DNA from: Branchiostoma floridae
Lineage: Eukaryota; Chordata; Leptocardii; Amphioxiformes; Branchiostomatidae
DNA: 64,000 bases
Reading direction: 5' to 3'
NCBI RefSeq assembly: GCF_000003815.2
Contig: NC_049992.1
Coordinates: 13,307,105-13,371,104 of the forward strand
Positions 386 to 63,626 of this stretch are shown here, one piece after another. The translations under genes were made by a program, and so were the position numbers. The notes beneath the pieces are model-generated. The model did not search any database and was not told where the DNA came from. It was given only the letters and a program-made list of their open reading frames with translations. Each line of letters starts with the position of its first letter. Positions within the stretch are counted from its first letter, which is position 1.

Positions 386-24299
<23,914 letters not shown>

Positions 24300-28539: not shown

Positions 28540-31500
28540 TGTAACGCTACTGTGCATTCTGTGGACTGGTGTTTTTTAATCACATTTGCAAATGATCATG
28601 AACAGTTGAGGAAAGGCAAGGTTGTCAGGGGAAAGAGAAAGATGTCCAAACATATCCTTATATGACAAAAAACTACTTATTTCATAGAAAAATTGACGCG
28701 TACATGAATACAGGCGGCGCTTCTCCGGGCCGCCAAGATGTGACTTGGGCTCCTCGTGCGGCGTCTAGAAATCGATCCTTCTACTGTCGACTGTCGTTAT
28801 AAAAAGCCTGAAAGGCCATTCAACATGTTCAAGAAGACACCTGGGCTTTCCTGGGATAAATTTCACTAGCTTTAAGCCTAGTGTCTTGTAAATATTCACA
28901 TTTTTGTAAGTCGGAACCATATACCCTAACAGAGCCTAATCTGCAGTACCGCTCCCGGCCGCGACCGGAAAAGTGACTAAGACGACCGCCAAATTGCCAA
29001 ATTTCGATCATTTCGTGAATGGGGAACTCGCCAAAGGCTCGGAAAGGGGTTTGAATTTGTTAACCTTATTCACCTTTGTTTTCGAATATGAGACCATCAG
29101 AAAATAAGAATGACTGTATTTAAGAGATTTCACAATCAGGACAATTGGACATTATGTAATAAATGGTATATTTCCTTCGCATTTACCAAAATTGGCGGTC
29201 AAGTGTACATTTCCTATCAATTGTCGCTTTCCGAAGGGCTATCACATCCAAATGTCAATCCCATGTTGTGAAACAAAAAGACGTTGAACAGACACAATAT
29301 GTCTGCATGTATGTCTTGCAATAGACCCAATCTAACTCTCAAAAATGCTGACACGTGATATTTAACGCTATATCTTTAGCCGCCAAGGAGAGTCACCAAA
29401 TTTATACAATGGTTTAAAACAAGACAACCTACCTCCTAATGAAAAAAAAAACTATTTATCATACCGCATGTATGCTACGTGAGTTTAATGACTTGATAAC
29501 CTTGTTATCACTTAGATTTTAAACGTTTTTTAAATTTTTTCTGATCTTAACTGCATTCGCCACTATTAGTTTTGGGATGTCCAGAGGATGTCATTAATCA
29601 TGAAAATCAAGTCAGTGTGAAATGAATCCAGGAGGCGGAAAGACGCACGTATCTCGCTAACGGTGCGTCGCTCATTCCCACGTTTGGCCATCCTGTAAAT
29701 AACTTGTCAGACGAGATGGTCTGTTGTGGAGGTTTACGTGCCTTTCTTGATTTCTCTTGTTCTTGATCTTGAGGTTAAACCGACCACCTAAATAATGTGA
29801 CTCAATCACTGCTAACCCGCGCTATAGCTGCATACTTGCTAATTTTGAGACACGTATCATCAGGAGATGGGCTAGGGCGAACAGTAGAATGTGGGGATTT
29901 TTACCATTTTTTAAACATCGGAGTTCCAATAATGTTCCACACGGAGCTTCATAATCGGTGCATACACCTTCTCTCGTCGCTTAGAATACTGACAAAGGAC
30001 TTTGCCAATGCCATCACACAAAATACAATGGAAACATGTAAACTTTCAATTCATTTCAAACTATCGGTACAATATGTAAAACCCAATCACATAAATGCTA
30101 TCTCCCTCGCACAACTCGGTGTCTTCTATGCACACACTGATTTTAAACCGTGATCCAAAACTACATAGTATTCTTCAATAAGCGAAAAAATGTCATAATG
30201 TAAGCGATCCGACTCTCGATCGCCCAAAAATATCTATACACCCTAGTCTGCATTCTGTCCATGCATGAACAGTTGAGCAAAGGCCAAGGTTGTCAGAGCA
30301 AAGTGAAAGATGTCAAAACATATCCTTAAATGACATAAAACTACCCATTTCGTAGAAAAATTGACGTGTACATGAATACAGGCGGCGCTTCTCCAGGCCG
30401 CCAAGGTGTGACTTGGGCTCCTCGTGCGGCGCCTGGAAATTGATCCTTCTACTGCCAACTATCGTTATAAAAAGTCAAAAAGGCCATTCAACATGTTCAA
30501 GAAGACACTTGGACCTCTCTTGGATACAGTTTACTAGCTTTAAGGCTATCGTCTTTTATACATTCACATTTTTGTAAGTCGGAACCATATACCCTAACAG
30601 AGCCTAATCTGTAGTACCGCTCCCGTCCGCGACCGGAAAAGTGACTAAGACGACCGCCAAATTGCCAAATTTCGATCTTTTCGTGAATGGGGAACTCGCC
30701 AAAGGCTGGGAAAGGGGTTTGAATTTTTTTACCTTATTCACCTTTGTTTTCGAATATAAGACCATCAGAAAACGAGAATGACAGTATTGAAGACATTTTA
30801 CAATCAGAACAATTGGATATTTTTCAGTAAATGGTATATTTCCTTCGCATTTACCAAAATTGGCGGTCAAGTGTACATTTCCTATCAATTGTCGCTTTCT
30901 GAAGGGCTATCACATCCAAATGTCAATCCCATGTTGTGAAACAAAAAGACGTTGAACAGACACAATGTGTCTGCATGTATGTCTTGCAATAGATTCAATT
31001 TCCCTCTCAACAAACCTGATACGATAGTTAAGAGTTATATCTTTAGCCGCCATGGAGAGTCGCTTGATTTGTACGGTCCTTTAAAGTAAAACAAAACAAC
31101 CTACCTCCTGATGAAAGAACACAAATAAAGGATGTATCATATTACACGTATATTCCGTAAGTTTATAAACCTCATGACCTGTTGTTATCACTTAGATGAA
31201 AAAAAAGTTTACTATTTTTCTAATCTTTCTTGCATTCGCCACTATCAGTTTTGGGATGTCCAAAGGATGCCATTAAACATACGAATCAAGTCAGTGTGAA
31301 ACGAATACAGGAGGCGGAAAGGCGCAGGTATCTCGCTAACAAAGCGTCGTTCATTCCCAGATTTGGCCATCCCGTGACTTGTGAAACGAGATGGGCTGTC
31401 ATGGGGATATAGGTCCCTTTCTTGATGACTCCTGTCCTTGATCTTGAGGCCTAGCCGGACCACCTAAATAATGTGACTCAATCGATAGATGAACCGTCCT

Positions 31501-34500
31501 AGCTACTGGCATGTTAGTTTTGAAACATGTGGGCTAGATATAGAGCGAAAGGTAGAATTTGGGGATCTTTCTTCAGTTTCACTGATGTTCCATACAGAGC
31601 TTTATAATCGGCGCACATATAATTTCTTGTCGCTTAAAATACATGTACGACATCACATTCAAAATACACTGGAAACAGTCTATTTCAACTATCGGTACAA
31701 TATAAAACCCAATCATGTAACTAAGTGCTATCTCCCTCGCACAATCCGTTGTCTTCTACATACACACTGATTTCATTTAGAACAGTGATCCAAAACTACA
31801 TAGTATTCTTCAATAAGCGAAAAAAAAATTAGAATGGAATAAATCATAACTCTCGATCGCCCTGAAATATCTATATATACCCTAGTCTGTACTTCATGCA
31901 TTCTGTTGTCTGGTGTCCATTTATTACATTTGCAGATGATCATGAACAGTTTAGGAAATGCTAAGGTTGTCAAAGAAAAGAGAAAGATGTCAAAACATAT
32001 CCTTATATGACATAAAACTACTCATTTCGTAGAAACATTGACGTGAACATGAATACAGGCGGCGCTTCTCCAGGCCACCAAGGTGTGACTTGGGCTCCTC
32101 GTGCGGCGCCTGGAAATTGATCCCTCTACTGTCAACTATCGTTATAAAAAGTCTAAAAGACCAATTGACATGTTAAAGAAGACACCTGGGCCTCTCTGAG
32201 ATAGATTTCACTAGCTTTAAGCCTAGCGTCTTTTATATATTCACATTTTTGCAAGTCGGAACCACATACCCTAGCAGAGCCTTATCTGCAGTACCGCTCC
32301 CGGCCGCGACCGGAAAAGTGACTAAGACGACCGTCAAATTGCCAAATTTCCATCTTTTCGTGAATGGGGAATCCACCAAAGGCTCTGAAAGGGGTTTAAC
32401 TTTGTTAGGCTTATCTAACTTTGTTTTCGAATATGAGACCATGAGAAATCAAGAATGACAGTATTTAAGACATTTCACAATCAGAACAACTCGATATTAT
32501 GTAATAATTTGACTATTTCCTTCGCATTTACCAACATTGGCGGTCAAGTGTACATTTCCTATCAATTGTCGCTTTCCGAAGGGCTAATACATCCAAATGT
32601 CGTTCCCATGTTGTGAAACAAGAAGACGTTGAACAGACACAGTGTGTCTACAGATATGTCTTGCAATATAGGCCCACTTTAAATCTCAAAAATGCTGACA
32701 CGTGATATTTAACATGAACAGTGCAGTGAACGTTATATCTTTAGCCGTCAAGGAGAGTCACTAAATTTATACCATGCTTTAAAACAAGACAACCTACCTT
32801 CCGATGAATGAGAAAAAAAGGATGTGTCATACCACATGTATGGTCCGTAAGTTTAATGACTTGATAACCTTGTTATCACTCACACATAGATTTAAAACGT
32901 TTGGTAATTTTTTTTTCTGATCTTAATTGCATTCGCCACTATTAGTTTTGGGATGTCCAGGGGATACCATCAATCATGAAAATCAAGTCAGTGTGAAACG
33001 AATACAGGAGGCGGAAAGGCGCACGTATCTCGCTAAGGAAGCGTCGTTCATTCCCAGATTTGGCCATCCCTTTAACTTGTAGACGAGATGGGCTGTTATG
33101 GGGGTTTACGTGCCTTTCTTGATTTCTCTTGTTCTTGATCTTGAGGTTAAGCCGGACCACCTAAATAATGTGACTCAATCACTGCTAACCCGCCATAGCT
33201 GCATACTTGCTAATTTTGAGACACGTATTATCAGGAGATGGGCTAGGGCGAACGGTAGAATGTGGGGACACGATGGTCAAATTTGGCCGAAAAGTTTCCA
33301 TTCGAACGCAGAGTATCGGGTTACCGGGGCTCCCGCGCGGTTCCCGCGGAGGGCTGACGGTGACTGAAACATCTTCTAAAATATCGTGATAGTTTGAAAA
33401 ACAACCTCTCGCACGTGCCTCGTCGATATTAAATGAAAACAGGCAGTGTGTACACGTCAAATCTTACCGTGTACGTGTGCTACACAGTTTTGTCTCAATG
33501 TCTTCTGAAATGTGCATAGTTGGTTGATTTAGAAAGGGTGTTCGGTGTGCCAAAAAAGCAAATACCATATTTAGATTGGTCCTAAATTTGACTGAAAATC
33601 CAAATCTTTTATTTCATATAGGTAATGATATTAAGATCAAACTTTCTGTCTTAGGGATTTTTCAACTTCTACTTAAAACTATTTTTAAAGCCAATATAAG
33701 GTCGAAAAATCGTCATTTTTTCAAGTTTTCACACTCAAAGACTCGTAATTCAAAATTGCCTCGATGTTCCAAAAATCCCTAAGACACAAAGCTGGAGATA
33801 TTAGTTTCCGACAATATAAGTCCTGAAAGAGTTGATTTGCACGCGTTTTGCAAGCGATTTAAATACCATGTTTGGTCCTATGTCGAGTCGCACTGATAGT
33901 GACATAGAGTAATTGATACCGCCGTAAACAAGTGTTGTAACATTCAAGGTCACCAATAATGACGCCAGCAGCTTTGTTACATGTCACATGTTCCAAACTA
34001 AGCGGCAGCAAAACCAAGCTTGCCAAATAACGGTTTATATTTGTGAAAATGTTTGTTTTTCTTCTGACGCACGGCACCCGGGAAAATGAGGGCGTTTTCT
34101 GCGTGTTTACTGTAACAACCTGCGGGTGACCTCGGATGACCCCAAATAGAACGCCTGTTCTGTTCGATCACGCCAGCGTTCTGTTCGATGGAAGATGATT
34201 CGTGTTCTAAATCCCCACATAGAAGTCTGGAAATTTTGGGGCCAAATTTTACCATCGTGGGATTTTTACCGGCATTTTTTTTAACATCTGAGTTCCAATA
34301 ATGTTCCACACGGAGCTTCATAATCGGTGCATACACCTTCTCTCGTCGCTTAGAATACTGACAAAAGACTTTGCCAATGCCATCACACAAAATACAATGG
34401 AAACATGTAAACTTTCAATTCATTTTAAACTATCGGTACAATATGTAAAACCCAATCACATAAATGCTATCTCCCTCGCACAATTCGGTCTCTTCTATAC

Positions 34501-35540
34501 ACACACTTATTTTAAACCGTGATCCAAAACTACATAGTATTCTTCAATAAGCGAAAAAATGTCATTATGTAAGCGATCCGACTCTCGATCGCCCAAAAAT
34601 ATCTATACACCCTAGTCTGCATTCTGTCCATGCATGAACAGTTGAGGAAAGGCCAAGGTTGTCAGAGCAAAGTGAAAGATATCAAAACATATCCTTATAT
34701 GACATAAAACTACTCATTTCGTAGAATAATTGACGTGTACATGAATACAGGCGGCGCTTCTCCGGGCCGCCACGGTGTGACTTGGGCTCCTCGTGCGGCG
34801 TCTAGAAATCGATCCTTCTACTGCCAACTGTCGTTATAAAAAGTCAAAAAGGCCATTCAACATGTTCAAGAAGACACTTGGACCTCTCTGGGATACAGTT
34901 TACTAGCTTTAAGGCTATCGTCTTTTATATATTCACATTTTTGTAAGTCTGAACCATATACCCTAACAGAGCCTAATCTGCAGTACCGCTCCCGGCCGCG
35001 ACCGGAAAAGTGACTAAGACGACCTCCAAATTGCCAAATTTCGATCTTTTCGTGAATGGGGAGCTCGCCAAAGGCTCTGAAAGGGGTTTGAATTTGTTAG
35101 GCTTATCTAACTTTGTTTTCGAATATGAGACCATTAGAAATCAAGAATGACAATTTTAAAGACATTTCACAATCAGAACAATTGGACATTAGGTCATAAT
35201 TGGTATATTTCCTTCGCATTCCTAAAACTGGAGTGTACCTTTCCTTTCCTTTTCACCTTCTGAAGGGATGTACCACGTCCAGATTCAATCCCATGATGTG
35301 AAACAAGAAGATGTTGAACAGACAGAATGATGTTATGGGGAGTTTGATACTATACATAACGCACCGTGGATCTGGTTCGAGATTAATTGAACCGTGCAAT
35401 ATAGCTTTTGCCGCCAGGGAGAGCCGCTTTTGAAACAAGACAACCTATCTCCTGATGAAAGAACGAAGATAGAGAGTGTGTCATACTTTGTTCCTTGGGT
35501 TTAATAATTTCAAAACCCTGCCATCACTTAGATTCAAAAC
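28540..35540. repeat. Tandem array of about four 1.67 kb units
   Basis: A marker segment (ggcggcgcttctcc, then a gggctcctcgtgcggcg block) recurs at 28713, 30381, 32059 and 34750. The spacings are 1668, 1678 and 2691 bp; the last is enlarged by an inserted transposon. Further shared blocks are the cggccgcgaccggaaaagtg segment, a ggaggcggaaaggcgca segment, and ttttgggatgtcca. The copies differ by many substitutions and small indels and the fourth is truncated near 35540. ORFs in different copies are not in corresponding frames, so the unit looks non-coding. Array edges are approximate. Confidence 0.85.
33269..34259. mobile_element. 991 bp inverted-terminal-repeat DNA transposon nested in tandem copy 3
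   Basis: Begins cacgatggt(c)aaatttggcc and ends with the inverse, ggccaaattttaccatcgtg. It is flanked by GGA at 33266-33268 and 34260-34262. The uninterrupted copy at 29893-29905 reads gtggggattttt with a single GGA, so the insertion site and 3 bp target duplication can be read directly. An internal hairpin pairs gtcttagggattttt (about 33650) with its complement (about 33770). No transposase ORF. CAC termini with a 3 bp duplication would suit a CACTA/EnSpm-like element, but this is tentative. Confidence 0.85.
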
Positions 35541-41400: not shown

Positions 41401-44400
41401 ACGTTGTGTTGTAATGCAGGCAGAATTTGTGTTGTTGTGCTCCCCTGACATGATGACCACTTATATGTGAATACAGAGTTCTACATTAATTTGGTTCTCC
41501 TTTTAGTAGGGGTCCTATACACATTTCTCATGCAGCCGCTATGATAGATCAAAACCCAGGTCAATGAGGCAAACAAAAGACTGGCCATCATAATTAGCAG
41601 TTCAACAAATGATAGCATGGCAATTAGGAAAGTGCCCAATAAGAGAATGGCTGTCTTTCCATCAAATATTTGTATTATTATGTTTTTATTTTGCATCTCT
41701 TAAGGGACTATGGGATCAGTCTACACTTCTCTAAGTTGCTACATATTTGGGTATATAACACTAGTTATGATATTATAATTTGATCTTGTATTGTGAAAAT
41801 TTTTGTGGTTTGGGGGAAGACTAAATGGGAGCTGATTTTAGAAATACTTTTTGTCTATTTGCCTCATTGGCCTAATTTTCAATCTATCATGGCCGTCGTG
41901 TGAGAAATGTGTATTGGCGATATCACCACCCCCCTCCCCCATGTGTACCCAGAGTGTATACAACAGCAGGAAGAGAGAAGGTAGGCAGTGTAGGAGGAGT
42001 TTCTGCCAGATTTTGGAACCGTTGTTCTCACCTCCTCCCTACTGGCAGGCTCCTCCACTGCCTCCTGAGGGCACAAAAAACACACAACATCAACAATGTC
42101 TGCTGTCATCTAACACCGGGAAAGGGTTTTTTAGGAGCCTGTCTCTGTAGTCTTTTATTGTGAGTGAAACTAACTGTTACTGGTAGTAGATCCACATTGA
42201 AAAAATACAGAGCTTTAGCTCTTTCCTTGTTTCTTTTGCATTTTAAAGCAAAGTATTGACTGGAAAAACAACTCTTAAGTTTAAGGAAAATAAAATGTAG
42301 GAAAGATGATTTTGACAGTGGTAGGATTTTTCAACTATGCATAAGAACTTTCTATTTTTAATGAAGATTTTCTCAGAGATTAAAGATATGTTGAGGATTT
42401 TTTTTGCAAAGAAAAGGTCCCGTGCCTATCATAACGGTGGAACCCTTATAAACAGTTTAAAACAGAAATTCAAGGGTGTGGCCTGATATATGTAGTCATG
42501 GTAACACACATTACCTTTTTTCCAGAGGTTTCTGTGTCTTCTTCTTCAGCCTTCTCCTTGGTCTTCTCTTTCTCTCCCTCCTTTTCTTTCTCCTTTTCCT
42601 TGGTCTTCTCCTTCTTTCCTTCCTTCTTTTCTTCTGTCTTCTTCTCCTCCTTCTTTTTCTTGTCTTCCTTTTTCACCATCTTCTTGGCTCGGTAAAACAT
42701 CCCTTTTTCCAGAAGTCTATAGAGGAAGGCAAATACCACAATTCATACCATAAAGGGTCACTATCTATAGGCTACAAAATTAAGCAAAGTCAGAATGAAA
42801 CAATGTACGGTCCAGGGCTCCAGACTAACTTTTTGGCCTAGGAGCACTGCGCTCCTAACTCTAAAAACTTAGGAGCACCAGCAAAAATTTAGGAGCACCA
42901 CTGTAAAAATTGGTAGTAAAAGCAAAAAATCTAAGTATCATTATTGATCACCTGGAATAGCATATTTTCATACAGTAATATGAAAGAAAAACAGTCTTTG
43001 CTTTAAATACGTGAATGTGGAAATACATTGATGTGGTGGTTCTTGGGGATAGGAGGACACAGGTTTTTTGCTACAGACGNNNNNNNNNNNNNNNNNNNNN
43101 NNNNNNNNNNNNNNNNNNNNNNNNNNNNNNNNNNNNNNNNNNNNNNNNNNNNNNNNNNNNNNNNNNNNNNNNNNNNNNNNNNNNNNNNNNNNNNNNNNNN
43201 NNNNNNNNNNNNNNAAACCAAGTTACACAGACAAAAAAGTAATTATGCTTTCTTATTGTAAGAACAATGAAAAATAACTGATTAATCCCAAATTACCATT
43301 TAAATTGAAAAAAAAAAACACAAATAAGTATAAAGGTACAAGTGTCTGACAAAATGGGTGAAATTGAACTGAAAATGGAAATAGTGCAGGCCGCTCTCCA
43401 ACACCAAGATCGTATCTCAAGAATGTTTTTTTTCCACCCTACCATTTTTTTTATAAAGGCCTACTTGTTCACTGTCTCAGGGGCTGCAACATTGTTGTCT
43501 AAAAAGTCATGTTACAAAAGTTTTGTTACTGCCTACTGGACCTCCACTTATCATGCTGTCATAGCATATCATACCATACCATACTATATCAAGGAGGTTA
43601 TTTCCTATACATGAAATCTCCTTGGCCAAACCAAGGCTCTTTCTTCAACCTCCTTGGCCAAACCAATATATATATATATCATGTATACTCTCAAATTTCC
43701 CTATCTGTTTGGACAAACTCACAAAGGGAATACAGTAAATAAAGGTCCAGTGGAAAAACATTTTTTAAACCTCCTTGGTACATGTAATTGAAGACAGTAC
43801 AGACACATGGCAGGCCTTAATGAGGTGTGACCCCCCTGCTGACCATCCCTGTCAGGGGAAGAAACTGATACCTGGCAGGGACAGCCTTTCCCTGCAAAGA
43901 TTCTACTTGGCTGGATGATAAATGATGATTAATTGTAATAGGTCGCACAGTGCGACTGTGGTTACAGATCTGGTCGCACCAGGGGAATTCTACTGGCATA
44001 TGCGACCAACTTGGTCGCAGTCAGGAGCCCTGGTACTACCATATATTTAGTGTTGATCATTCATTCATTCAAACATTGTCTAAGAGCAGCTTATTAATCT
44101 CCAAGCATATCTTGCCTGGCATAAGATAGTATCATAAGCTGGGGAAGTAGTTTAGCCAGCAGAGGAGATAATTGGCTACGCATGGCTCAACTCCTTCCCC
44201 AGCTTATGATACTATCTTATGCCACGCAAGATCTGCTTGGAGATAACAGCTAATAAAGTAAAAGCTCATTTTTTTTCACAACAGACCAACTTACTTTTAG
44301 ATTAACCTGTATTGTAAAATAATAACAATATGGGTAACGACTATTTCAAGAAGTAAGACAATCTTAGCACCCCCTCCAATCTATGCAAAGTAGTATATTG

Positions 44401-46459
44401 TGACATGAATACTAAGTATGGTGTGCTCTACGAAACTATGCCTGAAGTAATATGATCCCTTCACCCACACCTGGAGTCCGAGCACCTGTTTCTCTATGTG
44501 TAACTACTTACACAATTCCAGAATACAAGATTAGCAGCTTCTACTGTCCCTGCCTGAGTCAACCAACAATATAAAAGAAAGAAAGGAGCATTTCCCATGA
44601 ATATAGAGAATGCTTATTGAAACTAATGACTGTTGTACAATGTTGTTACCTCTGGCAGTAGTTGACAGCAGACTCCCGATGAGTGAACAGCACTTCAGTT
44701 TTCCCCTTCCCTTCTGCCCACTTGGAGTCCAACAGACAGTCCACAGCTTTGGAGGCTGTAGAAGAAAGAAATGAGTCTCTTGGTAATACAGTAACTGTAT
44801 AATCTTTTATATCACTCATTAAAAAGAGGTTTAAATTTTGAAAGAGAGTCAATTGTTATTAAATCACTCATTAAAAAGAGGTTTAACTTTTAAAGAGTTA
44901 AGAGAGTCAATTGTTATGCCAATGAAGGTTGGGTAGAAAGAATTCCCAAAAGGGCGAAAGACTTTAAACAGTAAATTTAGACCTAATGTCAAAAGGTTGC
45001 AAAAAAACAAACAACCCATTTCATTACTTATTATTACCATTTCATTATTTTATTTCCACTTTTATTAGTAGAAGAAATCAGGAATTCAGCTTCTGCCATA
45101 TGGAACTACAGTAACATTAAGTGTTGTTTATCAAGGTGAGCTTACCTGTGAAATACTCCACATTGTTCCTCATGATGGAGGTTTTCTTGGTCGGCACATT
45201 GAACCTCAGATATTTCCCAACAGCCGTCTCCTCTTTAGAAACACCATCAGAGTCAACCTGATGACAAAAAAACAACAAAATGTACCATTCTTAAACAAAG
45301 TTTTGAACTGCCATGGGCATGACTTCCAGTGGATAAGTAACTATGATCTGTAAATGTGTAATTGCAGCTTAAATCTGGACTATTCCAATCTTAAGTTAAA
45401 GCATCATATTTTGATAGACAGTCAAGAAAATGTCTTAAAATGAAAAGTTTCATGCCTATCATTCATCAAAGAGAAAGAGTTTTGCAGCCAAAATATATTT
45501 GTGCTCATCAGAGTTATCTTACTAGTATGAGGGTACAGTTGTACTGCACATGTTGTAAGAAGTACTGTGTGGGGCAATGGTTAGACCATTTGGCCTAGAA
45601 CCAAGAGGTCCTGGGTTAGATCCCCTGACATGCCACTTCATTAGTCGGCTACAGGTGACATGCGGGGTGACCTAGGCTTAGGTTTACCCATCACACTTAT
45701 AAATTCCTTTCCGACATGATAGGATCAAGCCTCACAGTCTACAGCCTATGGGCTACAAGATCTTCACTTAGTTGAATATGGTAGTCTCAAAAGGAAGAAG
45801 GAGAAGTACAGTGAGTATTATCAGCTCTAGATCTGGACTGTACAAATTTTAAAATTTAGAGTTCATAATATGAAGAATGATGCTAAAACTAGCTAAAGTC
45901 ATCATTTCTTGCACTAGGTCTGACTGTTTTTTTACATTTCCGGTAGAACCTCTTTAATGGCTCACGTTAGAGACACGGAATGTCAACACAACAGACCCTG
46001 TCCGTAAACATATGGCAAAGTCTTTGACCTCCATTCTGGTAACAAACTTGCGCAATATTGTCAACACAATTTCACACCACGCCAGTGACGCCACCATCTC
46101 ACATGGCGTGGTTGGTGATCATGATCGCCTGTATCTGGAGACTCTACACAGATATGACGGTCCACAAGTAAACCGTTCAACTTCAAATCTGGAGCCGTTC
46201 ACAACAAACTTTCCTTACAGCAGTCAAAAATTATTTCCACTTTCATAGTCACCAAGCCAGCTGATTGCGAATAGGTAAACAATGACACTCATACGCCGTA
46301 ATAAAAAAGGTGTGGAGTTCTTTTTGGTCTAAAATATCCTAGAAAATTGTAGATATCCATGGAGAGTAGTGTCATGTCATATGAAGCTGCATTTGGGTGG
46401 GAAAGGCGAGGATTACTTACGTCTTTAGCCCTCTGCTTCTTTTTCCTTCGTTCCGCCAT
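38477..46459 (-). CDS. SEC62: Translocation protein SEC62
   Basis: ER membrane protein that works with SEC61 and SEC63 in post-translational protein import; vertebrate SEC62 also acts as an ER-phagy receptor. Exons in coding order (minus strand): 46421-46459, 45146-45257, 44650-44755, 42515-42716, 41177-41278, 40198-40258, 39434-39553, 38477-39015. They total 426 codons plus stop; human SEC62 has 399. The start is MAERRKKKQRAKD, similar to human MAERRRHKKR. Conserved blocks: VGKYLRFNVPTKK, SKAVDCLLDSKWAEGKGKTE with LFTHRESAVNYCQR, a long Lys/Glu linker (exon 42515-42716), two transmembrane segments around VVVVLFPLWPYEARQGVYYL and FFIGFILFLAV...LILFCLIWAGTGG, then HHHFWFLPNLTADVGFLDSF. The cytosolic tail is very acidic and contains GFEVIKKEELE, matching the human LC3-interacting FEMI site. 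All splice phases are consistent. Confidence 0.97.
38549..38560 (-). other. SEC62: LC3-interacting region (FEVI) in SEC62 tail
   Basis: The codons read F-E-V-I, preceded by DNG in a Glu/Asp-rich tail and followed by KKEELE. This fits the [WFY]-x-x-[LIV] core in an acidic context and aligns with the LIR of human SEC62. Confidence 0.7.
39691..40060. mobile_element. Short non-autonomous DNA transposon in SEC62 intron
   Basis: Left end actagagtttggtgacctca then acctccatgaaatat; right end gaatatttcatggaggtaat. Same terminal sequence as the element at 12749-13855 but only about 370 bp long. No ORF. Confidence 0.65.
40259..41176 (-). other. SEC62 intron with unclassified GC-richer block
   Basis: acgctcgtacccag occurs twice in the same orientation, near 40590 and 41031. 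A GC-richer block lies between about 40890 and 41130. It could be a transposon remnant; I cannot assign it. Confidence 0.4.
42812..44033. mobile_element. hAT-like non-autonomous element in SEC62 intron (contains N gap)
   Basis: Ends are ccagggctcc (42812-42821) and the inverse ggagccctgg (44024-44033). Repeated ggagcac motifs (taggagcaccagcaaaaa) follow the left end, and gtcgcac repeats precede the right end. CAGGG-type termini are common in hAT elements. The possible 8 bp flanks (gtacggtc/gtactacc) match at only 5 positions, so the target duplication is unproven. No transposase ORF, and 135 Ns lie inside. Confidence 0.5.
43080..43214. other. Assembly gap (135 N)
   Basis: Run of 135 Ns in a SEC62 intron, inside the repeat-rich hAT-like element. 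Confidence 0.99.
44088..44256. repeat. 169 bp fold-back element (MITE-like) in SEC62 intron
   Basis: About 60-base arms (agcttattaatctccaagca ... ataagctggggaag and inverse) surround a central spacer of about 45 bases. Pairing is nearly perfect apart from a few mismatches. No coding potential. Confidence 0.88.
45566..45806 (+). mobile_element. tRNA-derived SINE in SEC62 intron 1
   Basis: The head resembles a tRNA gene: a ggggcaatggttagacca A-box-like segment (45571-45588) and a cctgggttagatcccc B-box-like segment (about 45611-45626). An unrelated body of about 170 bp follows, with a purine-rich tail near 45790-45806. Acceptor-stem pairing is poor, so it is not called as a functional tRNA. 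Confidence 0.6.
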
Positions 46460-46474
46460 TTTGTCCAACACAGC

Positions 46475-46530
46475 AGGGGTGACGTAAGCATTAGCGCAGG
46501 CGCCTAGAGCCCACGGTGAGAGATCTCAAA
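46475..46530 (-). promoter_or_regulatory. Probable SEC62 promoter core with CRE-like and NRF1-like sites
   Basis: Immediately upstream of the SEC62 ATG. TGACGTAA (46480-46487) is a CRE/ATF-like site and agcgcaggcgcc (about 46492-46503) resembles an NRF1 site; there is no TATA box nearby. The same sites recur in the A copies at 48359 and 49542. Confidence 0.5.
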
Positions 46531-49500
46531 TAAAAACAAGGCTTTAAACCATTGAAAAGCCTTTCTTGGTGGGATTTTATGTGAAATCTGGGCATTTTGG
46601 GAGTGGCTGCAGTAGGAAAGAGCCTACACTGGTAGAATTAGTTGTAAAAAATGACCTTTCTCCATCGAGGGGGTTTCCGCACCCCCCTGAAATAGTGGTA
46701 TCGTCGCCAGAATGCTGTTTTCAGCCAAATGGGCCAATCCAAGGGCTCTAATTAGGGGGGTGTATCAAAAGATTAGCCGTATAGAAATTCTTGCCAAGGA
46801 ATTTGCCGAGACTGGACATATTAGGCTATCATTTGAAGGTAAGTTTGTATGGCTTGAACTTTTTATTCTTGAGATAATTGCATATTTGTTTCCTCAACTC
46901 TCCCATTGGAACGCATGTATTAGTGGCTGAAATTCTAATGGCCTCGTCTCCCCTGTAGTGATTCAGGTAGGCATGGATTAGGCCATTCCTGTTCATTTTA
47001 AGGGCTTTTTTGTCATGGATCTGTTACCTGAGCAAGGTATAGGGTTCAGGTGACTGTCATTTACTTGAGATTTACCCCATTTTTTGTTATTTTTGGCTCT
47101 CTTCCTTGTTTTTTAGCCATCCCTCCAATCAGTGCCAGACTGCAGACCAGGGACAGTGTACAGAGGACTTGATTTTGGTATTCTGGGGGTAAATTGTTGG
47201 GGGGGGGGGGGTGATTCCCCTATGGGAGGGGTCCTAGACCAGGTGAATGTTGTGATTTAGCCTTGCAACACTCTTTTTCATTCTTTTTGCCTTTTCTATG
47301 ATTGTCCCTATCCACACGAGTAGTCATTATAGACCCTTCAGGGCCCTTGAATAGACTTTAGGCTTGCCTTGAAAGTGTCTAGAAAGGGGATGTAGGAGTC
47401 TAAGTGAAGGGAACAATGTCTCCATTAGCTTAGGTGACCAACTTTTGGCTTTATTCACTTGTTTCTGTCAAATTCCACCTGTAGCCAGCATCCCTAGCCC
47501 AGGTCCACAGTGCAGGCCTGGCACAGGTAGGTCATCAATCCCCAGGGGAGTGTTTCTTATCAGAGGTCTTTGATATTGATGGTTTTTACTTCACACCCCT
47601 ACCCCGCAGTGGGTTATATGATTGACATCTGTCAATTGTGAACTTGAATTTACTTGTAGTGATTCAGGTAGGCATGGATTAGGCCATTCCTGTTCATTTT
47701 AAGGGCTTTTTTGTCATGGATCTGTTACCTGAGCAAGGTATAGGGTTCAGGTGACTGTCATTTACTTGAGATTTACCCCATTTTTTGTTATTTTTGGCTC
47801 TCTTCCTTGTTTTTTAGCCATCCCTCCAATCAGTGCCAGACTGCAGACCAGGGACAGTGTACAGAGGACTTGATTTTGGTATTCTGGGGGTAAATTGTTG
47901 GGGGGGGGGGGGTGATTCCCCTATGGGAGGGGTCCTAAACCAGGTGAATGTTGTGATTTAGCCTTGCAACACTCTTTTTCATTCTTTTTGCCTTTTCTAT
48001 GATTGTCCCTATCCACACGAGTAGTCATTATAGACCCTTCAGGGCCCTTGAATAGACTTTAGGCTTGCCTTGAAAGTGTCTAGAAAGGGGATGTAGGAGT
48101 CTAAGTGAAGGGAACAATGTCTCCATTAGCTTAGGTGACCAACTTTTGGCTTTATTCACTTGTTTCTGTCAAATTCCACCTGTAGCCAGCATCCCTAGCC
48201 CAGGTCCACAGTGCAGGCCTGGCACAGGTAGGTCATCAATCCCCAGGGGAGTGTTTCTTATCAGAGGTCTTTGATATTGATGGTTTTTACTTCACACCCC
48301 TACCCCGCAGTGGGTTATATGATTGACATCTGTCAATTGTGAACTTGAATTTACTAGAAGGGGTGACGTAAGCATTAGCGCAGGCGCCTAGAGCCCACGG
48401 TGAGAGATCTCAAATAAAAACAAGGCTTTAAACCATTGAAAAGCCTTTCTTGGTGGGATTTTATGTGAAATCTGGGCATTTTGGGAGTGGCTGCAGTAGG
48501 AAAGAGCCTACACTGGTAGAATTAGTTGTAAAAAATGACCTTTCTCCATCGAGGGGGTTTCCGCACCCCCCTGAAATAGTGGTATCGTCGCCAGAATGCT
48601 GTTTTCAGCCAAATGGGCCAATCCAAGGGCTCTAATTAGGGGGGTGTATCAAAAGATTAGCCGTATAGAAATTCTTGCCAAGGAATTTGCCGAGACTGGA
48701 CATATTAGGCTATCATTTGAAGGTAAGTTTGTATGGCTTGAACTTTTTATTCTTGAGATAATTGCATATTTGTTTCCTCAACTCTCCCATTGGAACGCAT
48801 GTATTAGTGGCTGAAATTCTAATGGCCTCGTCTCCCCTGTAGTGATTCAGGTAGGCATGGATTAGGCCATTCCTGTTCATTTTAAGGGCTTTTTTGTCAT
48901 GGATCTGTTACCTGAGCAAGGTATAGGGTTCAGGTGACTGTCATTTACTTGAGATTTACCCCATTTTTTGTTATTTTTGGCTCTCTTCCTTGTTTTTTAG
49001 CCATCCCTCCAATCAGTGCCAGACTGCAGACCAGGGACAGTGTACAGAGGACTTGATTTTGGTATTCTGGGGGTAAATTGTTGGGGGGGGGGGGGTGATT
49101 CCCCTATGGGAGGGGTCCTAGACCAGGTGAATGTTGTGATTTAGCCTTGCAACACTCTTTTTCATTCTTTTTGCCTTTTCTATGATTGTCCCTATCCACA
49201 CGAGTAGTCATTATAGACCCTTCAGGGCCCTTGAATAGACTTTAGGCTTGCCTTGAAAGTGTCTAGAAAGGGGATGTAGGAGTCTAAGTGAAGGGAACAA
49301 TGTCTCCATTAGCTTAGGTGACCAACTTTTGGCTTTATTCACTTGTTTCTGTCAAATTCCACCTGTAGCCAGCATCCCTAGCCCAGGTCCACAGTGCAGG
49401 CCTGGCACAGGTAGGTCATCAATCCCCAGGGGAGTGTTTCTTATCAGAGGTCTTTGATATTGATGGTTTTTACTTCACACCCCTACCCCGCAGTGGGTTA

Positions 49501-50020
49501 TATGATTGACATCTGTCAATTGTGAACTTGAATTTACTAGAAGGGGTGACGTAAGCATTAGCGCAGGCGCCTAGAGCCCACGGTGAGAGATCTCAAATAA
49601 AAACAAGGCTTTAAACCATTGAAAAGCCTTTCTTGGTGGGATTTTATGTGAAATCTGGGCATTTTGGGAGTGGCTGCAGTAGGAAAGAGCCTACACTGGT
49701 AGAATTAGTTGTAAAAAATGACCTTTCTCCATCGAGGGGGTTTCCGCACCCCCCTGAAATAGTGGTATCGTCGCCAGAATGCTGTTTTCAGCCAAATGGG
49801 CCAATCCAAGGGCTCTAATTAGGGGGGTGTATCAAAAGATTAGCCGTATAGAAATTCTTGCCAAGGAATTTGCCGAGACTGGACATATTAGGCTATCATT
49901 TGAAGGTAAGTTTGTATGGCTTGAACTTTTTATTCTTGAGATAATTGCATATTTGTTTCCTCAACTCTCCCATTGGAACGCATGTATTAGTGGCTGAAAT
50001 TCTAATGGCCTCGTCTCCCC
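46475..50020. repeat. Nested tandem duplication A-B-B-A-B-A upstream of SEC62
   Basis: A blocks (479 bp): 46475-46953, 48359-48837, 49542-50020. B blocks (701 bp): 46954-47654, 47655-48355, 48838-49538. A three-base aga joins each B to the following A. The copies are almost identical, including a run of 13 Gs in every B. The one difference I found is A at 47938, where the other B copies have G (47237 and 49121). A1 begins 16 bp upstream of the SEC62 ATG, so promoter-proximal DNA is triplicated. Within B, two segments (agccatccctccaatcagtg... and agcatccctagcccaggtcc...) are diverged repeats of each other. Confidence 0.95.
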
Positions 50021-50135
50021 AGCACTGTCTAGTCTCGCAGAGGTCTCGCGAGAACAAACGAGAGTAATCTCGAAGCAGATGTTGGGATGGGACATCAGGC
50101 CATGGGCTATGGGGCATCGTATTAAAGGTCATTAA
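49779..50135 (+). CDS. Candidate small two-exon gene, unrecognised product
   Basis: Possible exon 49779-49905 starts with ATG after an in-frame upstream stop and ends at gaag|gtaagt. A 117 bp intron ends ctccccag, with a ttctaat branch-like motif upstream. A second exon, 50023-50135, continues the frame (phase 1) to TAA, giving 79 residues. It starts MLFSAKWANPRALIRGVYQK and ends GWDIRPWAMGHRIKGH. ATTAAA lies at the end of the frame. It is divergent from SEC62. I recognise no family. Exon 1 is also present, identical, in the two other A copies. The chance of such a short open frame is not negligible. Confidence 0.25.
50044..50053. promoter_or_regulatory. TCTCGCGAGA palindrome (CGCG box / BANP-type site)
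   Basis: Exact 10 bp palindromic motif known from CpG-island promoters of housekeeping genes. It sits just outside the A-B array, where the unduplicated SEC62 upstream sequence resumes. Confidence 0.55.
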
Positions 50136-51125: not shown

Positions 51126-54100
51126 ATGTACTGTGGAGTGATTTTAGCGATTGGAGTGGCGGTAAGTGAGAAAAGTGACGAAGTTTTTAAGTGTTTACAC
51201 AGTAGCGCTAAGTGCGTTCTCCGATTTCCACTCAGTGCAACTCGTGTTGCGCAATGTCGACTGTAGGATTCCAAAACTTTGCCGGAATCATGATTTAAGG
51301 GAATAGATTTGTTTTCGTGAACATGTAGACAGTTCTAGACAACATTTAACACATAGGAATCACGTAGGTGTTGAGTTGAACCCCGTAAAAGTACGAACAG
51401 CAAATCACGGTGACGTCACTCACTGGGTGGCCGGAGTGAGAGATAGATCTAGATCTATACGTTTTGCTTATTTTAGCGAAACGGCGCTCTTCCAAAGCCA
51501 TCAAAGGTTATAAAACGTGAGCATGTTAGTCTTCGGTGTTCTGCATTGCATTCCAAAGAGCCATTTTTATGATGGCGCGTTTGGAAAACTACATGTACGC
51601 CAAAAGTTTCCCGTGACTCCTGGCCTGGCCCCGTTAGTCATTTCCGGTTGTTGCAGCTGGCGTGTTTAGCACACGTTGTTTTCGTGCTCCTGTGAATCGG
51701 TCGTGAACTTCATTACCCTTAAGTTGAATGGTTTTATAATCTAAACCTCATATGATGATACATTAATACAAACTTTGTAGTTTTTGCTGTTTTACGGAAC
51801 GCCGTGCTTGGTGCGGCATGGGACGGCTGGGGAATTCCGATGACGTCACCAGCAATCTAGGGCCTGCTGTTCGCCACGCTCCCAGGGTCACGGGCGGGGC
51901 AATGGGGTGGGCTCTTGTTGACAGTTAAGATTTCAAAGGATTTCAAAATCGTAGAAACATGCGTGTTACCTACTTTCTGTTTCCGTAAAAATGCCATGAC
52001 AAATATAAGACGTCCCCGTATTAAAGAAATGTTCCATTAAACAACAAGCAATGTCAATCAATACCCCTTTGATAACTTGGGATAGAAAATTCTAGAAAAG
52101 AGTGATTGAATATAAGTTTGAAAGTATGCAGAAACTCGGAGGACAAAACAACAGTGTCAGACGATTTTTTGTTGTTTATCAATTCTTCAGGTTCTTACTG
52201 GGGTTGTGAGCGGTGATGGACAAGATGAACATTTAGCCACGCCCCCTCCTCCGTGGAGACATGGCGATCTGCTCTGTGATTGGTGTCCACCAGGACAACG
52301 CATGAGCAGTCCCTGCACCGAGCAGTCGCAGACGCAGTGTGTCCCATGTCGGGAGAACGAATATGCCGAGTACTACAACCACCTGTTGGAATGTCGGCTG
52401 TGTAGGGCATGCGTCAGGGTAAGTCTAGAACCCCAAAATTGCCATCTCTCTTCAAATAAGATTTCAGATGTCTTTGGCTATTAGTTGTGAAATGGTACAT
52501 ACTTTTATTTGAGATGAATGTCACTCAAGAGTTCAAACTATTTTAATAATTGCACTGTAACTATGCAGCAGTTGGATACCCAATCATAAATAAACTGAAA
52601 TCATACTCATGTGTAAGTCACCCTTTGTCTTCAAAATACAACTTTCCTCTAAATCAATTATTGAGTTAAGACCTCAGTGTTCTAATTCAACGCCTTTCAT
52701 GTTTTTCCCAAAGCATCACGAACACGACTCGGAAAACTGCACCTCCACCACCAACAGAGAGTGTGAATGTGACCCAGGCTACTACTTATCCGGTGACGTC
52801 TGTGAAGCTCACACGAAGTGTTCCGTCAGATACGGGGTGAAGGAACAAGGTATTGGTGTTGGAACACATGTAGAAAATGCTAACTTTTCCAAACATTGGA
52901 GCATAAAAGTTGGTTAATTTACCCTATGGTACGTTGTATAATTGAATTGTAAATGAAAATACCTAACAGCAAACCAGCTAGTCATATCATGTTTGTTAAC
53001 AGAAAATGACAGTGAACAGTGGTAAATTAATCATTTTATTTCCAGTTAACGTTACATCTTCTACTCTCTGACCATGATAACTTTGAATTCACATTCAGGA
53101 ACGCCCACAAGTGACACCAAATGTGCGCGCTGTGAATCCGGGACCTTTTCTGACGTCATTTCCAGTACAGAGGTCTGTAAAGACCACACCGACTGTACGG
53201 ACTTTGGGCTGTGTGTAGTGGAGAAGGGAAACAGACGTAAAGACAACACCTGTGGAAACTGTACAACCAACGGGACAGGTAGGATACTTAATAGTATATT
53301 CGTTGCATTTTCGCTTGGAAAATAACTTCGACATGTACTTTTTGTTGTTTTGTATATGTCAATTATAAAGAAATAATCGTGCTACTTTAATCAAGTAACA
53401 TAGCACGCTTAAAACTGTTCATTTTCAAAAGCGTTGTTCAGGTTTTATAGATAATGGTATTTTAAACGGTATTCAACAAACCATAGTAGCAAAAGAAGGG
53501 ACATCAAATAGAATAGCACCAAAGCTAAATGAATGACCAAATGTACTTCGTTTTCAGTGACCATTATGACAACTGTCTCTACACCGACAACGGCTTCCAT
53601 AGGCAACTCATCCATAGATACAGGTATGGCATTATATGCATGTTCAAATAGAGTCAATAAAGTGACGTAGTGGCCGTCCTTTTTTAAAAGTGTGATTGGT
53701 TTTGAGTATAGTGTATAATGACAACGTCTGTGATGTTTTTCAGTGACCAAATATTTTAACTGGTCTTGTCTGCGTTTTACAGAAAACTCCACAGCTTTGG
53801 GCAACATTGAGACCCCGACAGATCCATTTACAAGGGGATACATTACACTAGGATGTGTATGTGGTGTTGTCGTCTTACTAGTCTGTGCAGGCGTAGTGAA
53901 AAGGCACTGGCTCCGTGCAAAGTTCAACGAACTTTTGGGGCGAACGTCACAGGACGGACAAGGTCAAAGTCAGGTGGACGGCGGCGTGACCATGCAGCCA
54001 CTGATGACGCAGCGCTCTGGACAGGCGCAAGCAGTTTCTGGAGAGGCACAAGCCGTTGGTGACCGACCGACCGATAGTGTACTCGTTCTGGGATGCTGTC

Positions 54101-54573
54101 CTATCCGCTCTAGTCCCAGACTGCGAAGAGGAGTGTCACGGAATGACGAACGTATGTATCTTCATTTCCCTCGTATATTACTTATCACTAAGTCTTAAGA
54201 CAATGTTTAATCAACAAGGGACTACAGGAATCGTTTTGAAAATTGCTTAAGTCAATTTGTTTCCCATCATGACTTTTCAGACGTTCGTGCAAGGATGGTG
54301 ACGACTGATGACCTGCCCGCCATCGCGGCTGACATAGGGGGCGCATGGAGACCGCTGGGGCGGAGACTGGGCTTCAGTGACGGCAGGCTGGACGGCTTCG
54401 AAAACGACTACCGTTACCTGGAAGAGATGACTCACCAGATGCTCCGCAAATGGATCAACGAGAGCCGGGAAGAAGCGACAAGAGGCAAGCTTGCGGATGC
54501 GCTTGTGGAAGTGAATAAAGAAGCCGTGGCCAGGACTCTGCTCGGACTCGCAATCGGCGAACACAGCGAATAG
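51126..54573 (+). CDS. TNF receptor superfamily member with death domain (receptor 1)
   Basis: Single-pass type I receptor predicted to bind a TNF-family ligand and recruit death-domain adaptors. Exons: 51126-51161, 52191-52418, 52714-52849, 53099-53278, 53558-53623, 53783-54151 (alternative start 53744), 54281-54573; 435 (or 448) residues. Signal peptide MYCGVILAIGVAVLTGVVSG is split by intron 1. The cysteine-rich domains include CDWCPPGQRM, CVPCRENEYAEYYNHLLEC, CECDPGYYLSGDVCEAHTKC and CARCESGTFSDVISS. Stalk with N-glycosylation sequons, transmembrane segment GYITLGCVCGVVVLLVCAGV, then a Gln/Gly-rich cytoplasmic linker. The death domain is in the last exon (ADIGGAWRPLGRRLGFSDGR, then HQMLRKWINESREEATRGKL). 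The ectodomain most resembles vertebrate TNFRSF11B/TNFRSF21 types, but unlike osteoprotegerin it is membrane-anchored. Orthology is not claimed. Signal exon chosen for its ATG, hydrophobicity and gtaagt in phase 0. Confidence 0.92.
51411..51418. promoter_or_regulatory. CRE site (TGACGTCA) in receptor 1 intron 1
   Basis: Perfect 8 bp palindromic CREB/ATF consensus, 250 bp after the signal-peptide exon. Confidence 0.45.
51829..51848. promoter_or_regulatory. NF-kB-like site followed by CRE in receptor 1 intron 1
   Basis: GGGGAATTCC (51829-51838) fits the kB consensus GGGRNWYYCC, and TGACGTCA (51841-51848) follows two bases later. A gggcggggc Sp1-type box is at about 51891-51899. The GC-rich surroundings suggest an intronic enhancer or second promoter. 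Confidence 0.45.
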
Positions 54574-59713: not shown

Positions 59714-62700
59714 ATGTGGGCACTGTACACAATATGCTGTGGAATTCTATTGACCGTAAGTAAGTTACTGTATTTAACGTTTAAATATATATGATGCTAA
59801 AACATCGGGTGTAGTTTCGATAACGTTACCGTTATAACGTTATATAGCAGGGGTTATCCCTGGCACCTCCTTGGTTATGATCAGTACGTAACGTTAAATC
59901 GAGTAAGTACATGTAACGTTACATGCTTCCAAGATACACATAAGTGTATTTTAACGTCATTTTAAAATGACATCTTTGGTATATAGCAATCCACTGTCCT
60001 CCGATTTTATCAATATCACTGCACTGTCAACCTCCCAGACCATCAGAAACTAAAACAGCAAACATGTTGGCCAGCTAATGTAACGTTATATGACAATCCA
60101 GAGTAATAGGCACAGTAAAATCTTTGCTACAAGTTTGCTATATTGATATAGTTTGCACTTGAGACAATTAAGTGACGTCAGACTTGCACGGCGCCGACAT
60201 TACCTCACCTGATGTGTTCAGTGAACCGTGATGAATATAAACAAGACTGATAGCTCTGTACTGTTCTCTGTATCTGAATCTATATAGCCGGTATAACTGC
60301 CCGAAAAGCTTCAGCCCAACAACAGGTGGTTCTGTGATACTATCACAGTACTAGACTGAACGACTTGTCACACATAAACCTTTGCACATTTAGTTGTAAT
60401 GAAGGTGATCCTATAGTAATAGGCAATGTATTCCACTTAACGATATTTCAGGGGAAAAACTAATATTTGAACAGCTTAATAACTCTGGTTACTCGAAGGC
60501 ATGACTACTTCTTGTTTTGCAGATTAATTTGTTAGTAAGATGTGAGGCAGACGAACCACCCCCCAAATGGGAATACTACAACCCGCTGTCAGGTGTAACA
60601 CTGCTCTGTGATTGGTGCGCTCCTGGGGAGTTCATGGTCACGGAATGTACGGAAACAACCGTCACACAGTGTCGCACATGCGCAGAGAACGAGTACACAG
60701 AACACTACAACCACGTCAGGGAGTGCTTCCGATGCAGGGAATGTCTGAAAGTAAGTGTCATTGTCATAAAAATCATTTTCTTTAAACATTACATGTATTT
60801 TATTTCATTTCCCATTGTGCGGTAGAAGGCCATATCGCAACACGAAGAACGGCAAGCTTTTTATATTTCAAATAATCGTGCATGTCTCTAGCAACCATAA
60901 CATCAGTTAGTTAAAAAACGTAGTCTGTCTAGTACTATTTCAGTATAGTAGTGTGATAACAGTGATTTTACCCCCTGTGAACCCAGGCCCACGAGCACGT
61001 CTTGTTAGGTTGCACACCTACCAACAACAGACAGTGCGTGTGTGAAGACGGCTACTTCCTGGCCTCAGAGTTCTGTTTTCAGCACACGAAATGTCCCATA
61101 CGCTATGGGGTCGTACAGAGAGGTACAGTATGCCTGTCTTTCTTAGATTAAATGTTAGACGGTTAACGACAATATTTGAAATGGAGATAATGCATAGTTT
61201 CATTGTGATATTACTTTCCCATTTTAGAATATATCCCTATTTTTGAGGATGCGTTATGCTTTAAAACAATGAATGCCATTTGCATTTCTCTATGAGTGCT
61301 AGCCTTACTGAAAAAAAGTCAAGAATTGTACATTTGAAAATATTCTTTCTCCTAAGGTACCCCCTGGAAGAACACCAAATGTAGACGGTGCAGTTCAGGC
61401 ACATTCTCTAACGTGGAGTCCAGCATGGCCACATGTAGGAACCACACGGACTGTGGGCCCATGGGGCTGTGTGTCACACAGAGGGGCAACAGGGGGGTGG
61501 ACAACGTCTGTGGAATATGTCCCCACTATAACACAAGTAAGGATGTATTTCGTGAACGTTGGGCTTACAGATCTAGATGAGATGAACACAAAATAAGATC
61601 TGGAACCGCTACCCAAACGCAATTTCTATCAATTCAATGCACGCTGTATTTATGAGTGGATTCCTAGTTCAACCCATTCTGTGGTAGATTTGTTGTCACA
61701 TTAAAGTGCACTTGCCCATCTTTTACACATAAACTACAGCAGCAGCACCAAAGTCTGAAGACAAAACATCTGTATCTACGGCAGGACCTACAGAGTTTGT
61801 CTCCGGTATGTGTGGCTTCAGTATCGGTAATGTTTGAGAGTTTGGGGATAACTAAAAGAATGCTATGGTATTATGGATGTCTTGGTGCACAGAATAAGAA
61901 TAAAATAAGGATATGCTAGATGACCAAAGGTAAGCTTTACCGGTCGACTATTCAAATATGCAAAGTAGATATCTTACACGTAGTCTGTGTAACACAAACT
62001 CTGCTGTCCAGGGCTGTAACTGACCCCTCCCCGCCGGCGGATGCTGGGCGGGCTGCTATAAGCGAGATTTAATCAGGCTATCTTACACGGTATTGCATTT
62101 AGACAAATGGGACGTCGGAAGCTATAGTTTATTATGCGTTTGTCAATCCTAAAATGATATTTTATATCAGCACCTAGGCAAGAAGACAACAACAATACTC
62201 GGAAACACGTCATTGTGACAGATGTAAGATGGGAGCCGATAGTTTACGTCACCATTGCCATAGTCATCCTTGCAGCAATCATAGGTATGTAAGGCACGGA
62301 TTTAATTCTGTAATTAGTTTCGTCAGGTTAGAAGAATTGGAATTGGCAAATTCTTCTTTACAACGATTCTTTCCTGCGTATGGGACGTTACGATTAACCG
62401 GGACGAGGGTGATACAAACTTAGTCACGTTTGGGATTCTGTTTCGCCGCAAAAGCGCCACCTATATCGGCTTCATAAAGCATAGATAAGCAGCACCCCAG
62501 TAAAGCTCTGAGTAACGTGTCTGACAAGCATTGAAATTTAAGCAGGAAAGATTCACTAGTTGTGAAGAAGAATATATCTTATTTCTTCACGTTGATGCTT
62601 GAAAATTTGTTCTGCCACATAAATATAACCATGTAATAACTTGTTACGACATGTTACGAAAGATTTCAAGAAAACTTCTTGTTCTTGTTTTCTTATTTTT

Positions 62701-63626
62701 TTGTTTTTAAGAAAACAATGGAATTTTGATGACACAGTACACGACATGTTACGAAAGATTTCAAGAAAACTTCTTGTTCTTGTTTTCTTATTTTTTTGTT
62801 TTTAAGAAAACAATGGAATTTTGATGACACAGTACATCGATTGATGTGAACTTAATCTTGGATGTTTTTACAGTTGCCGTTTGCTGCATCGTAAAGACAT
62901 TACGAAGACGACGGTCTGATACATCACATGGACTTCCGCCCCTACAGACAACGTTAGCAGGGAAGACACCCATAGTATCGTTTGTACATGTAGGAAAACC
63001 AAAAGGAAAGGAAAGTCCCCCCACCGAGCCTGACCAAGTAGGCTTCGAGACCCACCACACCCATGCTGCTGCTGCTGCAAGACAGACAACTTCCACTAGG
63101 AGAAACCCGTTAGCAATGACCCGTTTGGGTACTCCAACTGTGCCGAGACTTAGGAGAACAAAATCACGACAAAACGACGATGGTGAGTTTGCTACCGATA
63201 GTGTATCACAAAATGCAGATCTAAACACCTGAGCTACCTTAAACGGTCCTCTTAAAAACGTTGTAATTGCACGGTGATTAAAGGTAAGAAATTCATATTT
63301 ATAACACACTATTACTAATGCCAATGTTGTGTTACCAATTTCCAGAACTACGCCGCCGCCCCGGCACCCTAAATGATGTCGAACTCATCGTGGACGACAT
63401 CGGCGGCACCTGGAGGCACCTGGGCCGGGACCTGGGCTTCTCTGACGGCCGGCTGGACGGGTTTCAGAATGACTACCCCCTACAGCTGAGGGAAGCCGTG
63501 TTTCAGATGCTGCGCACGTGGATAGAGGAGAGGAGAGGGGACGTAACATTAGGGAGACTCATGGACGCTTTGAACAATGCGGGGAAACCGGAGCTGGCTG
63601 AGGCTCTACTTGAACAAACATCATAG
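59714..63626 (+). CDS. TNF receptor superfamily member with death domain (receptor 3)
   Basis: Type I death receptor. Exons: 59714-59755, 60523-60750, 60987-61122, 61357-61536, 61740-61805, 62171-62284, 62874-63182, 63346-63626; 451 residues. Signal peptide MWALYTICCGILLT, then INLLVRCEADEP. Cysteine-rich domains: LLCDWCAPGEFMVTEC, CRTCAENEYTEHYNHVREC, CVCEDGYFLASEFCFQHTKC and CRRCSSGTFSNVESS. The stalk is Thr/Ser-rich. Transmembrane segment IVYVTIAIVILAAIIGVAVC spans the 62284/62874 junction, followed by a basic stop-transfer KTLRRRR. The cytoplasmic linker carries an Ala run and many Thr/Pro. The death domain is in the last exon (DDIGGTWRHLGRDLGFSDGR, then FQMLRTWIEERRGDVTLGRL). Exons 2, 3, 4 and 5 have exactly the same lengths as receptor 1 (228, 136, 180, 66). 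An extra intron separates the transmembrane exon from the cytoplasmic exon. Confidence 0.92.
60173..60180. promoter_or_regulatory. CRE site (TGACGTCA) in receptor 3 intron 1
   Basis: Perfect CREB/ATF palindrome, followed by a short GC-rich stretch (cacggcgccg). Position in intron 1 parallels the CREs of receptor 1. Confidence 0.4.
62646..62836. repeat. Perfect 95 bp tandem duplication in receptor 3 intron
   Basis: acgacatgttacgaaagatt ... gacacagtac is present twice, at 62646-62740 and 62741-62836, with no mismatch that I can see. It lies just upstream of the acceptor at 62873. Confidence 0.95.

Follow-up and report, generated by a model that had tools for sequence, protein, structure and literature searches.

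The six blocks A-B-B-A-B-A found beside SEC62 (46475-50020) are very probably a multi-unit insertion of a young KolobokP-type composite transposon, in which A would be the terminal repeat (LTDR) and B the internal part (INT). What keeps this reading short of certainty is that the longer relatives examined yielded neither a transposase nor a nuclease between A ends. The window is the whole stretch of Branchiostoma floridae DNA that was analysed (64 kb). A preliminary description of the same DNA had proposed that SEC62 promoter-proximal DNA was amplified. This proposal is replaced here by a young composite transposon, as copies of A and B are found on many contigs and a target-site duplication brackets the array.

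Structure of the array

The blocks were compared base by base at fixed offsets. The exact runs are 46475-46953 (A1), 46954-47654 (B1), 47655-48355 (B2), 48359-48837 (A2), 48838-49538 (B3) and 49542-50020 (A3). The total variation of the array is one base (47938 in B2 is A, where B1 has G at 47237 and B3 has G at 49121). The order ABBABA with a single base difference, previously described, is thus borne out by exact comparison. The same applies to the distance of 16 bp between the start of A1 and the start codon of SEC62 (minus strand; 46459 is the A of the ATG) and to the unvarying run of G, which has an equal length in the three copies of B, their sole difference being 47938. The lengths previously given (A, 479 bp; B, 701 bp) agree with the exact runs and are refined as follows. 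Base 46475 is common to the A1 run and to the flanking AGCA, so that A proper is 478 bp long (GGGG...CCCC). AGAA (three bases and the shared A) is present at the two B-A joints and absent from the B1-B2 joint. B plus AGAA gives an INT of 705 bp, and an A-B-A monomer is 1,661 bp long. The exact repeats of the array (283-1180 bp) are far beyond chance, since the longest of the other exact direct repeats in the 64-kb window is 96 bp.

Table 1. Features of the insertion and of its surroundings, with positions in the window and the basis of each assignment.
Feature	Position	Strand	Basis or remark
SEC62 coding exon 1	46421..46459	-	start codon 46459; exon end by eye at GTAAGT
Left target-site duplication AGCA	46472..46475	+	same 4 bp directly 3' of A3
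A1, LTDR 478 bp, GGGG...CCCC, imperfect terminal inverted repeats	46476..46953	+	offsets, dispersed copies
B1, INT minus its last 4 bp AGAA	46954..47654	+	offsets, joints, dispersed copies
B2, INT with terminal AGAA 48356-48359, variant base 47938	47655..48359	+	offsets, joints
A2, LTDR	48360..48837	+	offsets, joints
B3, INT with terminal AGAA 49539-49542	48838..49542	+	offsets, joints
A3, LTDR, right end of the insertion	49543..50020	+	offsets, joints, flanking duplication
Right target-site duplication AGCA	50021..50024	+	identical to left AGCA
TCTCGCGAGA, candidate native SEC62 promoter motif	50044..50053	.	position; inferred

Ends and composition of A and B

A starts with GGGGTGACG, and its end, reverse-complemented, is GGGGAGACG; CATTAG is found farther inside both. 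These terminal inverted repeats are imperfect (8 of the 9 first positions paired, 14 of 19 overall). A 14/19 inverted match at exact ends was found in only 1 of 58,633 other intervals of equal span in the window. The score of A is equalled by 13 of these 58,633 intervals when the left end is free to move by up to 2 bases, and by 223 of 2,000 random intervals in a free local search of the terminal 60 bases. The argument therefore depends on position, the free local search being much less striking. The terminal dinucleotides of A in the window are GG...CC, in agreement with the RR...YY rule of KolobokP. GG...CC is also found at the ends of loci L012-L030 and L031-L035, with the exception of the left end of L029 (GA) and of the right end of L020 and the left end of L031, both inside B.

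The ratio of observed to expected CpG is 0.52 in A, 0.06 in B and 0.74-0.91 in three flanking stretches. The low value of B is equalled by 6 of 1,152 other 701-bp intervals. The level is maintained through A (0.52-0.54) and then falls sharply to 0.06 in B. The inverted ends, the AGCA flanks and the CpG depletion of B pointed to a mobile element. That A-B might be the exon-containing 5' end of a host gene was also considered; the CpG step from A to B argues against a contiguous gene start.

Dispersal in the genome

The assembly from which the window comes (513,431,437 bases, 431 contigs) was searched for A and B. At least 41 matches to A (96-100% identity) were found on 14 contigs, including the three of the window; this count is a lower bound, 40 of the 297 first-look candidates having been scored. 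For B, all 38 candidates were scored and yielded 45 matching stretches, of which three lie in the window; the identity of the stretches ranges from 100% down to 69%, and many of the low ones are partial. Twenty-five stretches were taken at or beside matches to A. They correspond to the best-scoring matches, so that old copies are under-represented. Both ends are available for 24 insertions (window included; L020 and L031 joined; L011 omitted, its ends being outside the stretch).

These 24 insertions include 15 solo A and five A-B-A (L012, L023, L026, L027, L029), i.e. the LTDR-INT-LTDR plan with an A of 478 bp. The others are A-B-B-A (L016), A-9bp-A (L030), a longer array (L020/L031) and the ABBABA of the window. 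L027 and L016 contain a run of N in B. L011 is a further array, in which one B contains N and two A are identical to the three A of the window; multimers are thus found at L011, L020/L031 and in the window. The L020/L031 array is A-B-A-B-A-B-A, its last B being split by an insertion of ~7.9 kb; the break shows a 14-bp overlap, as if it were a target-site duplication.

An exact target-site duplication of 4-5 bp, within the 3-5 bp of KolobokP, is found around 20 of the 24 insertions, and the duplicated sequence varies. As a control, the left flank of one insertion was paired with the right flank of another, and 19 of 552 such pairs matched. The four insertions devoid of duplication are L013, L014, L034 and L020/L031. 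From these comparisons of sequence, the SEC62 array is one of these insertions, flanked by AGCA and imported from elsewhere, since many contigs carry A and B and a target-site duplication surrounds the array.

Joints, divergence and age

AGAA is missing at the INT-INT joints of the window (B1|B2) and of L016 and is kept at that of L011; a loss of 3-4 bp at the INT tip is thus seen at two of the three INT-INT joints. The loss of one A, proposed in the preliminary description, is supported; between two B, A has been lost exactly or nearly so. Copies of A differ on average by 0.39% in one locus (23 pairs) and by 1.51% across loci (607 pairs). Larger differences in one locus also occur: pairs of A in L011 are up to 7 bases apart, and the pair of L030 is 6 bases apart.

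At a rate of 5.1e-9 per base per generation, as reported by PMC12500494, a single difference over 3 x 1,180 bp amounts to ~55,000 generations (Poisson range ~1,400-309,000). The allelic difference in these animals is given by the same source as 3.2-4.2%, which at an equal rate corresponds to 3.1-4.1 million generations for typical alleles. The array, near-perfect, is therefore very young, as was previously suggested, and merged haplotypes are an unlikely source of its copies: 0/478 and at most 1/701 differences are found, versus 3.2-4.2% between alleles. Provided that the assembly is right, the array is probably polymorphic in the population, since its estimated age is far below that of typical alleles.

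Longer relatives and coding capacity

No transposase-bearing partner was found among the longer relatives examined (L031, L036, L037, L038). L038 (125-3811) carries two copies of A (93% and 86%) around an INT of ~2.7 kb, both ends of which are common with B; this older relative is possibly a decayed longer member of the A-B family. Eight of its 19 listed open frames were compared with Pfam and gave two sub-threshold, unrelated matches only (Ig_6, E 0.038; PvuII endonuclease, E 0.2). The ~7.9-kb insertion inside B at L031 (with 100 N) contains no open frame of 150 codons. L036 and L037 show nothing beyond an 81% match to B 514-701.

A contains a 43-codon open frame (46712-46841) followed by GTAAGT; this frame is also largely open in the diverged copy of L038. 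B contains short exon-like blocks bounded by AG...GT. Two frames of A and one of B have no match in Pfam, and the 43-residue frame of A has none in PDB. Over the window, no match was obtained with Rfam (gathering threshold) or in a tRNA scan. The folding of A as single-stranded DNA is not significant (z -0.72). A scan of IMG/VR, where the genome of the window is possibly absent, gave two single matches to the terminal pattern of A.

Proposed mechanism

The insertion would have taken place between the start codon of SEC62 and the probable native TCTCGCGAGA motif, with duplication of AGCA. A transposase acting in trans would mobilise whatever is enclosed by two LTDR ends. LTDR-INT units would be added through unequal exchange or through integration of a circle at the LTDRs; solo A would result from LTDR recombination or from circle integration. 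The A between B1 and B2 would have been excised as a unit, the 4-bp INT tip AGAA being removed as well. Under the KolobokP model, near-identical copies of A in one locus would require LTDR recombination or conversion.

Reliability of the assembly

That the insertion is real and its copy number or order misassembled is possible, if on the doubtful side; the true allele would then be A-B-A, A-B-B-A or longer. This can hold together with the transposon reading and is graded separately. Runs of N are found inside B at three related loci (L011, L016, L027), the window itself has an arbitrary 100-N pad in an atrophin exon, and an array of such kind is reported to have been misassembled in an amphioxus draft genome (PMC3087553). 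Against it, the array of the window contains no N, the variant base sets B2 apart as a distinct copy, and ABBABA is a structure published for KolobokP (PMC9587614).

The SEC62 promoter

The Sec62 domain (Pfam) is found in further open frames of the minus strand. The insertion separates the gene from TCTCGCGAGA by 3,545 bp containing 66 ATGs on the SEC62 strand. The match at 50044-50053 is the only one to TCTCGCGAGA in the window with at most one mismatch. Shuffled sequences give a mean of 0.55 matches and at least one match in 44 of 100 cases; a single match is not unusual by chance, and its weight therefore stems from its position. Joining the flanks without the insert brings TCTCGCGAGA to 35 bp from the ATG of SEC62. 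In vertebrate promoters, where this element is reported 20-70 nt upstream of the start sites, it drives bidirectional transcription (PMC6192621). The native promoter motif of SEC62 is probably TCTCGCGAGA, which the insertion has moved away from the gene.

At 51127-54573 (+), open frames encode a cysteine-rich region of the TNF receptor and a death domain. These frames probably belong to a TNF-receptor-like gene placed head-to-head with SEC62 (gene start by eye), since they are on the plus strand and SEC62 is on the minus strand.

The CRE-like site of A1 ends 20 bp from the SEC62 ATG, and this site and a putative NRF1-like motif lie within 20-50 bp of the start codon; 1.38 occurrences of the CRE-like TGACGTAA are expected in the window by chance. 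The preliminary description counted a promoter core present three times. The motifs sit in A, which is dispersed, and they are part of the element. The CRE-like site of A1 could stand in as SEC62 promoter. That the A1 terminal repeat actually took over this role in this haplotype is considered unlikely. If it did, SEC62 expression would rely on a promoter cassette that is mobile, can be excised, multimerises and varies among individuals. The SEC62 allele, with an insert between its start codon and its probable promoter, is a direct test case for promoter replacement.

Other features of the window

A 95-bp unit is present twice in tandem with zero differences at 62646-62836; either this duplication is very recent, as for the array, or it is an artefact of the assembly. 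An older tandem array (28553-35333) is made of units of ~1.67 kb that are 80-92% alike; eight open frames of at least 90 codons are listed in it, the longest of 138. An inverted repeat that is foldback/MITE-like (62-nt arms, 94% complementary, 24 nt spacing) is found inside the SEC62 gene at 44097-44244. The 100-N gap (23304-23403) lies in an exon of the Atrophin-1 family. The Pfam profile ends at 833 and restarts at 837; the pad hides very little coding sequence, since just positions 834-836 of the profile are skipped.

Comparison with known systems

KolobokP elements are composite-like DNA transposons described by Kojima and Bao in 2022 (PMC9587614). According to this source, their LTDRs are ~450 or 660 bp long, with perfect or imperfect inverted repeats of 11-18 bp, RR...YY termini and duplications of 3-5 bp; solo LTDRs and multimers are frequent. 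Multimers are (LTDR-INT)n-LTDR; the ABBABA order and a deletion of 3-4 bp at INT-INT joints are also reported. Autonomous members encode a DDD/E Kolobok transposase. The hosts listed include B. belcheri, B. floridae and B. japonicum, the supplement includes 228 families, and the non-autonomous oyster families quoted are 1,738-3,261 bp long (PMC9587614). The A-B family resembles KolobokP in its LTDR-INT-LTDR plan, the length of its LTDR (near 450 bp) and the short inverted repeats of the latter, its RR...YY termini and 3-5 bp duplications, its solo LTDRs and multimers, the loss at INT-INT joints and its Branchiostoma host. It differs by a monomer (1,661 bp) slightly below the size of the non-autonomous oyster elements and by the fact that no transposase or His-Me nuclease was seen in the longer relatives examined here.

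Solo, monomer, INT-INT and multimer forms of this KolobokP-type family coexist in the genome of a chordate, which makes it useful for studying how LTDRs are excised and how the elements multiply. Among the papers listed by the literature searches, none has the insertion at the SEC62 locus as its topic according to its title or the opening of its abstract, which is weak evidence of absence. As a caution, such arrays in draft genomes are not to be taken as gene-specific duplications without a genome-wide search.

A non-autonomous LTR retrotransposon (TRIM-like) was also considered and is judged improbable. A would be the LTR, B a short internal domain and solo A would be solo LTRs, arrays sharing their LTRs. 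A-B-A with near-identical pairs of A, solo A and duplications of 4-5 bp agree with it, as do the direct terminal repeats and shared-repeat arrays common to TRIMs and to the A-B family. The A-B family differs by its termini, GGGG...CCCC rather than TG...CA, by the inverted repeats (14/19) at the A ends, and by direct B-B joints with A lost, unlike products of LTR recombination. A tRNA primer site usually begins with TGG; B starts with TGTAGTGATTCAGG, devoid of TGG (by eye, no tRNA set being used), and no primer site is evident. Tandem TRIMs and solo LTRs are documented (PMC11899658).

Compared with the KolobokP-type reading, multiplication in place of native SEC62 promoter DNA, akin to the mirage minisatellites of amphioxus, is hardly credible: a CRE-like motif does lie in A1, whose start is 16 bp from the ATG, and amphioxus genes with tandem repeats across splice sites are known (PMC3087553, PMC3902484), but A and B are on many contigs with their own flanking duplication at most insertions, which makes SEC62 very unlikely as the source of the other copies. 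Mirages are repeats of the exon-intron boundary of the host gene itself, a candidate dropped here as the A and B units are dispersed in the genome. They are reported in the amphioxus Adh3, globin and PGBD5 genes, the copy number in one globin gene being haplotype-dependent (PMC3087553, PMC3902484), and their units are reported as 10-160 bp long and located at exon-intron boundaries (PMC3087553). The SEC62 array resembles mirages as tandem repeats of an amphioxus gene with splice-like signals inside; it differs in that mirages are short units within a single gene, whereas the units of the array are dispersed mobile DNA.
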